A DNA stretch of 64,000 bases, taken from assembly GCA_022843125.1 (NCBI GenBank), contig JALHOG010000011.1, positions 6,869 through 70,868 of the forward strand, in the 5' to 3' direction. A program made the translations under genes and the position numbers. How positions within the stretch are numbered: the stretch's first letter is position 1; every line of letters starts with the position of its first letter. The notes below the pieces were generated by a model. That model was not told the origin of the DNA. It was given only the letters and a program-made list of their open reading frames with translations, and did not search any database. This DNA comes from Ilumatobacteraceae bacterium (lineage in GTDB: Bacteria > Actinomycetota > Acidimicrobiia > Acidimicrobiales > Ilumatobacteraceae). Positions 31,322 through 34,902 of this stretch are shown piece after piece.

Positions 31322-32530
31322 TCAGTTGTTGTGCCAGGTGTTGGCTTGGTCGCGGCGTTCGCGGAGGGCGTTGGGGTGGGCCCAGCCGAGGCCGACCCAG
31401 TCGTAGGGGATGCCGTCGGGTGGCGGGTCGGGCGGATGACTCTGCGGGACGGGCCGGCCTGTGGCGTCGGTGAACTGGATGCCGTCGGGGGTGTCGGCGT
31501 TGCCGTGGATGCCGAGTTCGCCTTTGTGGTGCATGCGGTGATGCCGTGGGCAGAGGCTGAGGAGGCTGGGGGTGTCGGTGGGGCCGCCGTCTTCCCAGTG
31601 GATGATGTGGTGGATCTCGACGAACCGGTCAGCGGTGCAGCCCGGGACGCGGCAGCCGCGGTCGCGGCGTTCGATGCGGCGGGTGCGGTCGGGGACGATG
31701 TGCTGGGTGCGTCCGACGCTGAACGGGATGCCGTTGTTCTCGTGGACGATGGCGCCGAGCCCGTCGCAGGAGCAGAGGCGGGCGAGGTTCATGGGGATGC
31801 GCCAGCCGTCGGTGGTGGTGGTCGCACCGGTGTCGGTGTCGTGGTGGAACCAGGTGCGGAAGCGGTCGCGACGATCTCGCGACGGCACGGCATCCAACGA
31901 GCGTTCGGCGATGTCGACGAGGGCGTCGGTCCAGGTGGCGTCGGTGTTGCCGTCGTCGAACAGTCGGTCTTTCGATTCGGTGAACGCGGCTTCGATGCAT
32001 TTGCCGAGATCGATGTCGAGGTCGCCGGTGAGCTTCCACCGGTTGTCGCGGATGCCGAACGACAGCCGATTCGACGGCGCTCGGGCTGCTGCCTCTTCGG
32101 CGGGTTCGTCGGGGTCGTGCTCGAACGCGTCGTCGCGGATAGCGCGGCGCAGGCGTGACACGGTGCCGATCTCCGCGAAGCCGAGCACCTGCTGCTGTGC
32201 CCAGTCGGGGGCTTTCACCAACTCGGTCATCTGATCGACGGACACCACACCCTGGTCGAACGCTTCGAACAGGACCGGGTACCGGTCACGGACCTTCGCC
32301 AACCGGACCACCTGGCCGGCGTGCTCGGGCGACAAGCCGGATCGCCACGCCAGCCACGCGGCCGGGGTCTTCATCCCTGCTTCGGACGTCTCCCCCGCGG
32401 CGATCGCGGCGGCGGTGACCTCCACCAGCCGCGCCATCGCAGTGTTCAACACCCCGGCGAGGTGCGCGACCTCCGCAGCGACATCGCGGACCACAGGCGG
32501 TGCTGCGTCGAGCGTGGCAACCGAAGACAT
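31322..32530 (-). CDS. DUF222 protein with C-terminal HNH endonuclease domain
   Basis: 402 residues. The N-terminal two thirds match DUF222 (helical; 'AAWLAWRSGLSPEHAGQVVRLA', 'FDQGVVSVDQMTEL'). The HNH nuclease is near residues 300-355: 'RDRGCRVPGCTADRF', 'EIHHIIHWEDGGPTD' and 'LCPRHHRMHH' with the zinc-type cysteines. These genes are abundant, repeated and poorly understood in actinobacteria, and often behave as mobile or selfish elements. ATG 32530 is fixed by a strong leaderless promoter. Confidence 0.93.
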   Translation of the reverse strand: MSSVATLDAAPPVVRDVAAEVAHLAGVLNTAMARLVEVTAAAIAAGETSEAGMKTPAAWLAWRSGLSPEHAGQVVRLAKVRDRYPVLFEAFDQGVVSVDQMTELVKAPDWAQQQVLGFAEIGTVSRLRRAIRDDAFEHDPDEPAEEAAARAPSNRLSFGIRDNRWKLTGDLDIDLGKCIEAAFTESKDRLFDDGNTDATWTDALVDIAERSLDAVPSRDRRDRFRTWFHHDTDTGATTTTDGWRIPMNLARLCSCDGLGAIVHENNGIPFSVGRTQHIVPDRTRRIERRDRGCRVPGCTADRFVEIHHIIHWEDGGPTDTPSLLSLCPRHHRMHHKGELGIHGNADTPDGIQFTDATGRPVPQSHPPDPPPDGIPYDWVGLGWAHPNALRERRDQANTWHNN

Positions 32531-32536
32531 ACTGAC

Positions 32537-32565
32537 ATCGTACAGGTGTTCGACCCAAGGTGCAA
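32537..32565 (-). promoter_or_regulatory. Promoter of the HNH gene
   Basis: On the minus strand TTGCAC (32565-32560), a 17-nt spacer and TACGAT (32542-32537) lie 6 nt before the ATG at 32530. One of the best -35/-10 pairs in the window, and leaderless. Confidence 0.7.
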
Positions 32566-32614
32566 CTAGTCGAACGGGATTCCTCTGCGCATCGGTCGGG
32601 TCGGCAATACGGGC

Positions 32615-32646
32615 ATGGCGGAAATCGCCATAAATCACGCTAAGGT
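32615..32646 (+). promoter_or_regulatory. Palindrome and -10 before the small membrane protein gene
   Basis: A perfect inverted repeat ATGGCG-gaaat-CGCCAT (32615-32631) lies just upstream of TAAGGT (32641-32646), which ends 6 nt before the ATG at 32653. The palindrome occupies the -35 to spacer area and may bind a regulator. Confidence 0.5.
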
Positions 32647-32894: not shown

Positions 32895-33521
32895 TCAGAC
32901 GTCTGGGCGTTGGCCGGGGTCGGGGGGCTCGGTGCGGGTGCGCTTGAGTTCCCAGAAGCCGTCCATGGTGGTGAACGCTTCCATCGCGTCCCACACCTTC
33001 AGCGATTGCTCACGGTCCGGTACCCGGGTGATGACCGGGCCGAAGATGCCGCGCTTGATGCCGTCGGCGGCGGTGAAGGCGATGATGGGGGTGCCGACGT
33101 CGTTGCCGACCAGGGCGAGGCCGACGTCCATGCCGGTGCGGATCGCTTCGTCCCAGCGGGTGTCGTCAGCGGCCGCGGCGAGTGCGGGGTCGAGGCCGAC
33201 GCGCTCGAGTGCTGCGCCGAAGTCGATGTCGCGGTCCTTGTCGTGGTGGATCAGCGTCCCGCACTGCCAGTACCAGTCGAAGACCTTCGCGTCGCCGTGC
33301 TCGGCGCGGATCGCTTCCATGATCCGCAGCGCACGGTGGCCGAGCAGCGCGCCGGCGTAGTACGGCGACTCCGGATCGGGGTCGTTCTTGAACAGCAGAC
33401 TGATCGGCTGCCAGTTGATCTGCAGCTCACGCTGCGGTGCCACCTGATCGACGACCCAACGGGCCGTCACCCAGCACCACGGTCAAATCGGGTCGACCCA
33501 GAAGTCCACATCGGTTGCCAT
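32895..33521 (-). CDS. Mycothiol-dependent reductase, Rv2466c family, with predicted selenocysteine at an in-frame TGA
   Basis: A DsbA/FrnE-type thioredoxin-fold protein of 208 residues if the TGA at codon 13 (33485-33483) is read as Sec. Codons 1-12 read MATDVDFWVDPI; then TGA; then PWCWVTARWVVDQV. In the Rv2466c family this site is DP[LI]CPWCW, so the TGA exactly replaces the nucleophilic first Cys, giving UPWC. The rest is intact: cis-Pro loop 'DVGTPIIAF', 'FGPVITRVP' and the C-terminal hallmark 'FWELKRTRTEPP'. Known members are mycothiol/mycoredoxin-linked reductases. ATG 33521 has the -10 variant CAGACT (33533-33528) 6 nt upstream. Ordinary gene calling would start at GTG 33470 and lose the active site. 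A nonsense mutation or base error is the alternative. Confidence 0.85.
33450..33468 (-). promoter_or_regulatory. Candidate bacterial SECIS stem-loop
   Basis: On the minus strand GACGGCCC (33468-33461), a GTT loop (33460-33458) and GGGTCGTC (33457-33450) form an 8-bp stem with one G-T wobble. The loop begins 23 nt after the TGA (22 nt between), and its first base is G. Published bacterial SECIS criteria ask for a loop of 3-14 nt with a G in the first two positions, 16-37 nt from the UGA. All are met. Confidence 0.65.
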
Positions 33522-33538
33522 CGGCGCAGTCTGACACG

Positions 33539-33550
33539 TTGCGCGCGCAA
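33539..33550. promoter_or_regulatory. 12-bp palindrome between the Sec reductase and rimO
   Basis: TTGCGCGCGCAA is a perfect palindrome in the 76-bp divergent region, located just upstream of the CAGACT -10 of the reductase and about 34 bp upstream of the rimO -10. It could be an operator. Confidence 0.4.
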
Positions 33551-33583
33551 ACACACGTCCGGCTCGAAGATGACCCGCACGGG

Positions 33584-33589
33584 TAGCCT
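33584..33589 (+). promoter_or_regulatory. rimO -10 element (leaderless)
   Basis: TAGCCT ends 8 nt before the GTG of rimO, with no Shine-Dalgarno. The same hexamer precedes trpD, tRNA-Arg, carD and the gene at 60066. Confidence 0.6.
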
Positions 33590-33597
33590 CGTCGTTC

Positions 33598-34902
33598 GTG
33601 TCCCAGCGCTTCTACGTCGAGACGCTCGGCTGCCCCAAGAACCAGGTCGACTCCGACAAGCTGATCGGCACCCTGCTCGCCGACGGCATGAGCCCGACCG
33701 ACGATCCGTCGGCAGCCGACCTCGTGGTCGTCAACACGTGCGCGTTCATCGACGAGGCCCGCAAGGAGTCGATCGACACGATCCTCGCCCTCGACGACCA
33801 GCGCCAGGAGGGCGCGCGGCTCGTGGTCACCGGGTGCATGGCCGAGCGATACGGCGACGAGCTCGCCGAAGCCCTGCCCGAGGTCGACCAGGTCGCCGGG
33901 TTCGGCGTGCCCCTTCAACGGCCGGCGTCGGCTGCCAACGGCCGCAACCTGATCCCCGTCACCTCGGCACCGCTGCCCGAGCTCGATCTCCTCAACCTGC
34001 CGCGGCCGCGCTCCACTTCTCCGTGGGCGTACGTCAAGATCGCCGAGGGCTGCGACCGGTCGTGCGGCTTCTGTGCCATTCCGTCGTTCCGCGGGCCGCA
34101 GCGCAGCCGCGACATCGAGCAGATCCTGACCGAGGTCGATCAGCTCGCTGCGCGCGAGATCGTCCTCGTCGCACAGGACCTCGCCTCGTACGGCAAGGAC
34201 CGGCCCGACGAGCTCGGCGCCGGTTCGATCGTCCCGCTCGTACGCGCGGTCAGCGAGCGCGCCGACTGGCTCCGGCTGCTCTACCTGTACCCGAGCGATC
34301 TCACCGACGAGCTGATCGACGCGATCTGCGACACCGGTGTGCCGTACTTCGACCTGTCGCTCCAGCACGTCAGCAAGCCGCTGCTCCGTCGCATGCGCCG
34401 GTGGGGCGACGGCGACCGCTTCCTGCGCCGCATCGCCGACATCCGCGACCGCGAGCCCGACGCCGCGTTCCGCAGCAACTTCATCGTCGGCTACCCCGGC
34501 GAGACCGAGGCCGACCACGATCAGCTCCTCCGCTTCGTCGAGGAGGCCCAGCTCGACTGGTGCGGATTCTTCGCCTACTCGCCGGAGGACGGCACCTACG
34601 CCTACACCCTCGACGGTGCCGTCGACCGGGGGCTGATGAACGACCGGCTCGCCGAGCTGCGCGAGATGCAGGACGAGATCACCGCCACCCGGCGAGACGC
34701 GTTGATCGGACGCACGCTCCGGGTGCTCGTCGATTCGCCCGGCATCGCCCGCAGCGTTCGCGAAGCGCCCGAGATCGATGGTGTGATCCACGTCGGGCAA
34801 GATGTGGTGGTGGGGGAGTTCACCGAGGTCGAGATCGTTGACGCGCTCGGCCCCGACCTCGTCGCATCGGGCGGTGCCGTGCCCGAGGAGGATGACGACT
34901 GA
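33598..34902 (+). CDS. rimO: Ribosomal protein S12 methylthiotransferase
   Basis: A 434-residue radical SAM enzyme that adds a methylthio group to an Asp of ribosomal protein S12. N-terminal UPF0004 domain with 'ETLGCPKNQVDSDKLIG' and two more cluster cysteines ('VVNTCAFID', 'VTGCMAERYG'). The radical SAM motif CxxxCxxC is in 'GCDRSCGFCAIPSFRGPQ' near residue 155-165. A C-terminal TRAM domain starts near 365. The LGCPKN motif separates RimO from MiaB. First gene of a rimO-pgsA-cinA operon with overlapping stop/start codons. Confidence 0.96.
   Translation: MSQRFYVETLGCPKNQVDSDKLIGTLLADGMSPTDDPSAADLVVVNTCAFIDEARKESIDTILALDDQRQEGARLVVTGCMAERYGDELAEALPEVDQVAGFGVPLQRPASAANGRNLIPVTSAPLPELDLLNLPRPRSTSPWAYVKIAEGCDRSCGFCAIPSFRGPQRSRDIEQILTEVDQLAAREIVLVAQDLASYGKDRPDELGAGSIVPLVRAVSERADWLRLLYLYPSDLTDELIDAICDTGVPYFDLSLQHVSKPLLRRMRRWGDGDRFLRRIADIRDREPDAAFRSNFIVGYPGETEADHDQLLRFVEEAQLDWCGFFAYSPEDGTYAYTLDGAVDRGLMNDRLAELREMQDEITATRRDALIGRTLRVLVDSPGIARSVREAPEIDGVIHVGQDVVVGEFTEVEIVDALGPDLVASGGAVPEEDDD

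Follow-up and report, generated by a model that had tools for sequence, protein, structure and literature searches.

The locus is very probably a genuine, widely conserved selenoprotein gene of the Rv2466c type, in which selenocysteine (Sec) is predicted in place of the nucleophilic cysteine. Minus-strand gene of 208 codons, located near the middle of the window, the whole stretch of 64,000 nucleotides that was analysed. Sec codon TGA, at the position of Cys19 of Rv2466c, followed by a SECIS-like hairpin inside the coding sequence. As judged from aligned loci, the position and the conservation of this TGA are far beyond chance. We infer selenium in the product. The features of the gene are as follows.

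32895..33521, minus strand: predicted gene of a Sec-containing Rv2466c-type reductase, 208 residues, Sec at codon 13 (frame, PF22234, PDB matches).
33528..33533, minus strand: CAGACT, possible -10 element of a leaderless promoter (CANACT in close loci; function putative).
33519..33521, minus strand: ATG start, 12 codons ahead of the TGA (pre-TGA protein conservation; upstream start codons in TGA genes).
33483..33485, minus strand: in-frame TGA at codon 13, predicted to encode selenocysteine (opposite Cys19 of Rv2466c in the alignment; TGA conservation).
33474..33476, minus strand: TGC, resolving Cys of the U-P-W-C motif, Cys16 (aligned with Cys22 of Rv2466c).
33468..33470, minus strand: internal GTG, the start expected from a standard caller, active site lost (ORF list).
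33450..33468, minus strand: SECIS-like hairpin of bacterial type within the coding sequence, with a stem of 8 bp and a GTT loop at 33460-33458 (model constraints, conservation, covariation).

Reading frame and protein family

Re-read from the sequence, the minus-strand frame from ATG 33521 is MATDVDFWVDPI, TGA, PWCWVTARW...; apart from this one TGA (33485-33483) no stop interrupts it before the one at 32895, exactly as the first-pass annotation had described it. CAGACT (33533-33528) ends 6 nt before this ATG, likewise as described. CANACT was found 6-7 nt before the start position in seven of seven close loci examined, which had been chosen after the element was seen upstream; it fits, without proving, a promoter giving leaderless mRNA. 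The ORF listed in the same frame is 32895..33470, starts from GTG, comprises 191 aa and lacks the active site, in agreement with the earlier expectation that a standard caller would start at GTG 33470 and lose that site.

Downstream of the TGA, the protein matches Pfam PF22234 (Rv2466c-like) at E 9.5e-33. With the TGA read as a residue, the match extends from residue 12 on, at E 3.5e-38 and 132 bits (gathering score 27), and is the only PF22234 match in the window's genome at E 0.001. Best PDB relatives by sequence are 4ZIL, 4NXI and 5XUR (Rv2466c) together with 4WKW, aligned over residues 5 to 201. In the gap-free alignment, codon 13 corresponds to Cys19 and codon 16 to residue 22 (Cys in 4ZIL, Ser in the C22S structure 5XUR); the claim that the TGA occupies the nucleophile of the CPWC motif of Rv2466c is borne out by this alignment and by the PF22234 assignment. 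The available text of PMC8280269 and PMC11841060 assigns the nucleophilic role to the first Cys of the motif (Cys19) and the resolving role to the second (Cys22). The active site UPWC fits the CPWC/CPFC pattern, in which the first residue is the nucleophile, provided that Sec is accepted as a Cys equivalent. An AlphaFold2 prediction for the window protein, with Cys in place of the TGA and 22 aligned sequences, has a mean pLDDT of 95; in a fold search with this model, all ten top PDB matches come from Rv2466c chains or from 4WKW of M. leprae, at a TM-score of about 0.8.

Shared with Rv2466c (Mrx2, mycothiol-dependent nitroreductase) are PF22234, the predicted fold, the P-W-C half of the motif and the GTP motif; different are the TGA-encoded predicted Sec for Cys19 and the SECIS-like hairpin in the coding sequence of the window gene. 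Corynebacterium glutamicum NCgl2339 and NCgl2478 (DsbA-Mrx1 cluster, C-P-F-C) are likewise DsbA-like with a nucleophilic first and a resolving second Cys, and serve as a model of the mechanism; unlike the window protein they are Cys enzymes, and NCgl2478 is reduced by MSH/Mtr/NADPH (PMC8280269, available text).

Codon 13 in relatives and the selenocysteine machinery

A search of 395 genomes of the class gave a match to the protein at E<=1e-20 in at least 187. Seventy class loci were fetched: the top 50, with E values up to 1.1e-68, and a selection of 20 from further down, G366 among them for its TGA flag. Codon 13 is TGA in 45 of the 70 and TGC or TGT in 25. The comparison of orthologues proposed with the first-pass annotation gave TGA in 44 of the best 50 class loci (TGC/TGT in 6) and in 79 of 80 loci (TGC in 1) kept from 214 relatives in a second, named collection, which overlaps the first. 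Across the 150 loci examined, codon 13 alternates between TGA and TGC/TGT only. Titles in the second collection include Ilumatobacter, Candidatus Microthrix, Ferrithrix and many Acidimicrobiia, with many MAGs titled Acidimicrobiaceae or marine actinobacterium; the few titled 'Actinomycetes bacterium' are taken as loosely named, because one of them (L195) has a protein row identical to that of G359, a genome of the window's class.

Phylum-wide, 68 of 396 genomes had a match at E<=1e-30; among the matches listed, no TGA form was found outside the class. The sole TGA flag outside the class among these matches (G581) proved to be a Cys codon. Of seven distant TGA-flagged loci fetched (L121-L127), only L123 has TGA at codon 13; six have Cys there, the flag coming from elsewhere in the match. 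Further distant TGA forms may exist beyond the matches listed.

Six of the eight window ORFs checked end in TGA; a change of the genetic code was rejected on this ground. The same count speaks for the gene being simply broken, the TGA being a nonsense mutation or sequencing error and the product absent or truncated. Against this, the TGA is kept at codon 13 in the overlapping sets above, from many assemblies, and the protein is conserved on both sides of it: F 0.96, W 1.0, D 1.0 and P 1.0 at codons -6, -5, -3 and -2, with FW.DP before and PWCW after the TGA nearly invariant. An ATG or GTG start codon lies within 20 codons upstream of the TGA in 123 of 124 TGA genes. The window gene has no second in-frame stop. 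A pseudogene is refuted because the frame is kept in more than 100 distinct sequences (109 unique); the probability of a broken gene is practically nil, and the earlier judgement that a nonsense mutation or base error is unlikely is strengthened by TGA conservation to an exclusion.

The reading of the TGA as Sec agrees with the gene content of the window's genome, where a search for Sec machinery had been recommended. tRNA-Sec (selC) is present on contig C123 at 63.5 bits (gathering score 47), with anticodon TCA by ARAGORN. selB is a 572-aa ORF at 291 bits (cut-off 242), and selD reaches 330 bits (cut-off 125). Of selA, the C-terminal third alone (positions 235-366) was found; it opens contig C30 and directly precedes selB, and an edge of the draft assembly explains this best.

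Formate dehydrogenase alpha matches were found in the same genome. The best (810 bits, contig C6) is without TGA. The second (G000:C67:18241-20112), at 662.5 bits just below the cut-off of 666.25, contains one in-frame TGA, as do the counterpart genes of the relatives G002 and G157. The site in G002 (L219 1501-3372, minus strand; the one copy read) is ...CNRT, TGA, HAP..., i.e. a UHxP motif, which is listed for selenocysteine formate dehydrogenase alpha in the available table of a review (PMC13188914). From the TGA-bearing match it follows that Sec decoding probably serves further genes in the window's genome. Formate dehydrogenase alpha has the recoding mechanism in common with the window gene, but is an unrelated enzyme with another fold and another chemistry.

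tRNA-Sec is over the cut-off in 261 of 395 class genomes (filters may lose weak matches) and, being common in the class anyway, discriminates little. The TGA form was read in 46 genomes (44 of the main clade, G366 and G254), of which 40 have tRNA-Sec over the cut-off. selB is over the cut-off in five of the other six (G359, G324, G302, G353, G232, G345); in G345, 68% complete, neither tRNA-Sec nor selB was over the cut-off. Strong tRNA-Sec matches also occur in very small class genomes (about 1 Mb) of group f34/g88. Neither of its listed members, G005 and G011, matches PF22234; selenoproteins of other kinds can be expected in these genomes.

SECIS-like hairpin

Stem 33468-33461 paired with 33457-33450. 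The bacterial SECIS model in the available text of PMC13188914 has a loop of 3-9 nt, a stem of 4-16 bp, G in the first two loop positions, a distance of 16-37 nt from the TGA and a free energy of <= -7.5 kcal/mol. With a 3-nt GTT loop, 8-9 bp, 22 nt and -13.1 kcal/mol, the hairpin lies inside this published range in loop, stem, G position, spacing and energy, as had been claimed. The first-pass annotation placed the hairpin 22 nt after the TGA: this is correct for the loop and incorrect for the stem, which begins 14 nt after the TGA, while the 8 bp and the GTT loop stand. The figure of 22 nt is retained because it is the loop distance that counts in the SECIS model. Rfam models on 33300-33700, at E up to 1, gave only a psbNH fragment, on the other strand and outside the hairpin.

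Among 1392 TGA triplets of the window (both strands, all frames, own included), a comparable hairpin of >=7 bp follows 166, and one as stable follows 45 (3.2%). The hairpin as sole evidence was rejected for this reason; since such hairpins are common in the GC-rich DNA of the window, the argument rests on conservation of the hairpin. A hairpin of >=7 bp in the model range is present in 122 of 124 TGA genes (missing in L113 and L177) and in 1 of 26 Cys genes. The first set contributes 45 TGA sequences, 41 of them distinct; 97.0% of their cells are paired, with changes on both sides in two pairs. For the 25 Cys sequences the paired share is 57.5%, where shuffling gives a mean of 52.8%. Of 500 shuffles, 2 are as high in pairing, 11 reach the covariation score and 250 the count of double-change pairs.

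The single Cys gene with the hairpin (L062, G027:C1:127246-127878) has TGC at codon 13 and still a SECIS-like stem without a mismatch, which may be left over from a change of Sec to Cys. It follows that the stem is not strictly tied to TGA.

As the collections overlap, unique sequences were used for statistics (109 of the 123 main-clade TGA genes). Pair 21-33 links two synonymous third codon positions, one in a Thr and the other in a Val codon. Its states in the 109 sequences are GC 94, AU 7, GU 4, UA 1, UG 1, CG 1 and mismatch 1, i.e. standard in 108. Among the 108 sequences keeping Thr and Val, 107 are paired; in 20000 shuffles, which ignore relatedness, the mean is 95.2 and the highest value 101. 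At the four-fold codons +5, +6, +7, +10 and +11 the commonest codon is used in 0.99, 0.90, 0.94, 0.87 and 0.97 of sequences; at eight other four-fold codons (-11 to +59, residue conserved >=0.85) it is used in 0.31-0.71. Some two- and three-fold codons outside the hairpin reach the uniformity of those inside it (up to 0.96); codons of these two kinds were left out of the comparison.

These data bear on two further readings. The TGA could be a true stop, with a product started from GTG 33470 and the conserved TGA and hairpin acting in translational control. The frame after the TGA matches PF22234 unaided, and codon +5 is GTG in about 98% of TGA genes. Such a product, however, would lack both active-site residues and the first strand, yet FW.DP and PWCW are nearly invariant; the GTG lies inside the hairpin, where synonymous choices are generally frozen; and the TGA alternates only with TGC/TGT in the 150 loci examined. 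This reading is highly improbable. Equally improbable is decoding of the TGA as an ordinary amino acid, by reassignment to Trp or Cys or by near-cognate readthrough. Readthrough would likewise keep the frame open, but TGA terminates most window ORFs checked, Sec machinery is present, the alternating codon in relatives encodes Cys only, and the SECIS-like hairpin is conserved with covariation. Sec insertion is the reading followed below.

Sec/Cys exchange, affiliation and predicted function

A quick tree was built from 107 rows of 160, the second-collection loci being thinned to every third plus one Cys row; some branches are long. The Sec label needs 6 changes on this tree, 3 of them forced by well-supported branches, against 29.7 for shuffled labels. 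As the tree is unrooted, gain and loss are inseparable. One supported clade (98) contains 70 Sec and 7 Cys rows. The Cys rows L048, L092 and L159 stand beside the window's group of Sec rows (support 86), and L048 and L159 share with the window gene a neighbour which we take to be rimO. From this position and the common neighbour, exchange of Sec and Cys in place is suggested by the sequences, in either direction.

The rimO-like gene adjoins the homologue in 9 of 110 loci, own included (flanks 0.1-3 kb); with so few loci and short flanks, a conserved neighbourhood was rejected as a clue to function. Window ORF 31322-32638 (minus strand), presumably an HNH/DUF222 protein, had no counterpart next to the homologue in any of the other 109 loci searched (short flanks).

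A separate, single-thiol branch includes two TGA genes without the resolving Cys.

L113, G366:C14, 1120-1179, minus strand: TGA at the catalytic position, UPFA.
L123, G254:C9, from 598, plus strand: TGA at the catalytic position, UPWA.

Cys relatives in this branch include L122 (CPWA) and L124 and L127, which read CPWA or CPFA. By eye, a hairpin with a single T-T mismatch stands at the corresponding position in L113 and L123. L113 fails the 7-bp hairpin test; L123 was scanned at 5 bp only, and no stable hairpin was found there.

It is possible, and on the whole rather doubtful, that the window protein is a selenoprotein which simply belongs to the catalogued family 'DsbA-like protein form 1' (PF01323, UxxC), recorded in marine metagenomes since 2005. 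The window protein also reaches the cut-off of PF01323 (28.2 against 25.6 bits, residues 5-50 only, with UxxC), and many of the loci belong to the MAGs with Acidimicrobiaceae or marine titles. NCBIfam, on the other side, has no model matching the window protein at E 0.001. COG2761 is presumably FrnE, and the fold match to the entry named FrnE (5xwh; E 2.1e-5, 18% identity) is far weaker than that to Rv2466c (4zil; E 2.6e-15, 35% identity). The Sargasso DsbA-like family is assigned to COG2761 (PMC1088965, available text). In the available part of the 2026 review, which counts 119 selenoprotein families or subfamilies, Table 1 lists DsbA-like form 1 with PF01323 and UxxC and has no PF22234, Rv2466c or mycothiol entry (PMC13188914). 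Marine surveys of 2005 and 2008 report DsbA-like UxxC selenoproteins (PMC1088965, PMC2398784, available text); in the latter, the GOS paper, one of three DsbA groups has UxxC with weak PF01323 similarity only. Form 1 resembles the window protein in belonging to the DsbA superfamily and in having Sec first in UxxC; it differs in being filed under PF01323/COG2761, with representative NIP15863.1 (PMC13188914, PMC1088965, PMC2398784). Some of the proteins of the marine surveys could be of the Rv2466c-type clade, and there is a real chance that the clade sits inside this older, loosely defined group.

The kind is known; the Sec form of Rv2466c appears to be unnamed in the literature searched. No name for it was found in the available text of that literature, including PMC12013277 and PMC9312934, with subscription papers, supplements and RefSeq annotation outside its scope. 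Within the same scope, no paper was found joining Rv2466c with selenocysteine or UPWC with selenocysteine, and papers joining Ilumatobacter with selenocysteine or Acidimicrobi- with selenoprotein had titles on other subjects. A wider proposal, given about an even chance, is that the clade represents an unnamed selenoprotein family spread through the class Acidimicrobiia. It would be the Sec counterpart of the mycothiol reductase Rv2466c, and mycothiol metabolism would thereby gain its first selenium enzyme; the main clade would have switched between Sec and Cys in place more than once, and the single-thiol UPWA/UPFA branch would hold Sec separately.

For the selenoprotein of Rv2466c type, the following course is proposed. 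Transcription would begin at or just upstream of ATG 33521. UGA at codon 13 would be read as Sec by SelB with Sec-tRNA, decoding being helped by the SECIS-like hairpin in the coding sequence, with its loop 22 nt downstream, probably through recruitment of SelB. The selenolate of Sec is the proposed attacking group towards oxidised or mixed-disulfide substrates, with Cys16 resolving the selenenyl-sulfide. By analogy with Rv2466c and the corynebacterial relatives, mycothiol may reduce the enzyme; its role as reductant is uncertain. An mshC-like match in the window's genome scores 318.7 bits over positions 172-409, below the NCBI curated cut-off of 485.1, and the best mshA-like match scores 148 bits only. 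In two single-contig relatives of the same genus, G002 and G157, the mshA-like match is full-length at 391 bits, below the cut-off of 462.5; the corresponding stretch in the window's genome may lie beyond a contig edge. selB and the mshA-like glycosyltransferase gene are about 7 kb apart in both relatives (G002:C1:765588-774450; G157:C1:3840585-3849699).

The gene is probably mis-annotated in many genomes, as a caller's start at the downstream GTG would drop the active site. Natural Sec/Cys pairs, solved structures and a worked-out Cys mechanism make the gain from selenium directly measurable in this family. If mycothiol is the partner, the enzyme would link selenium biology to the thiol system of Actinomycetota.
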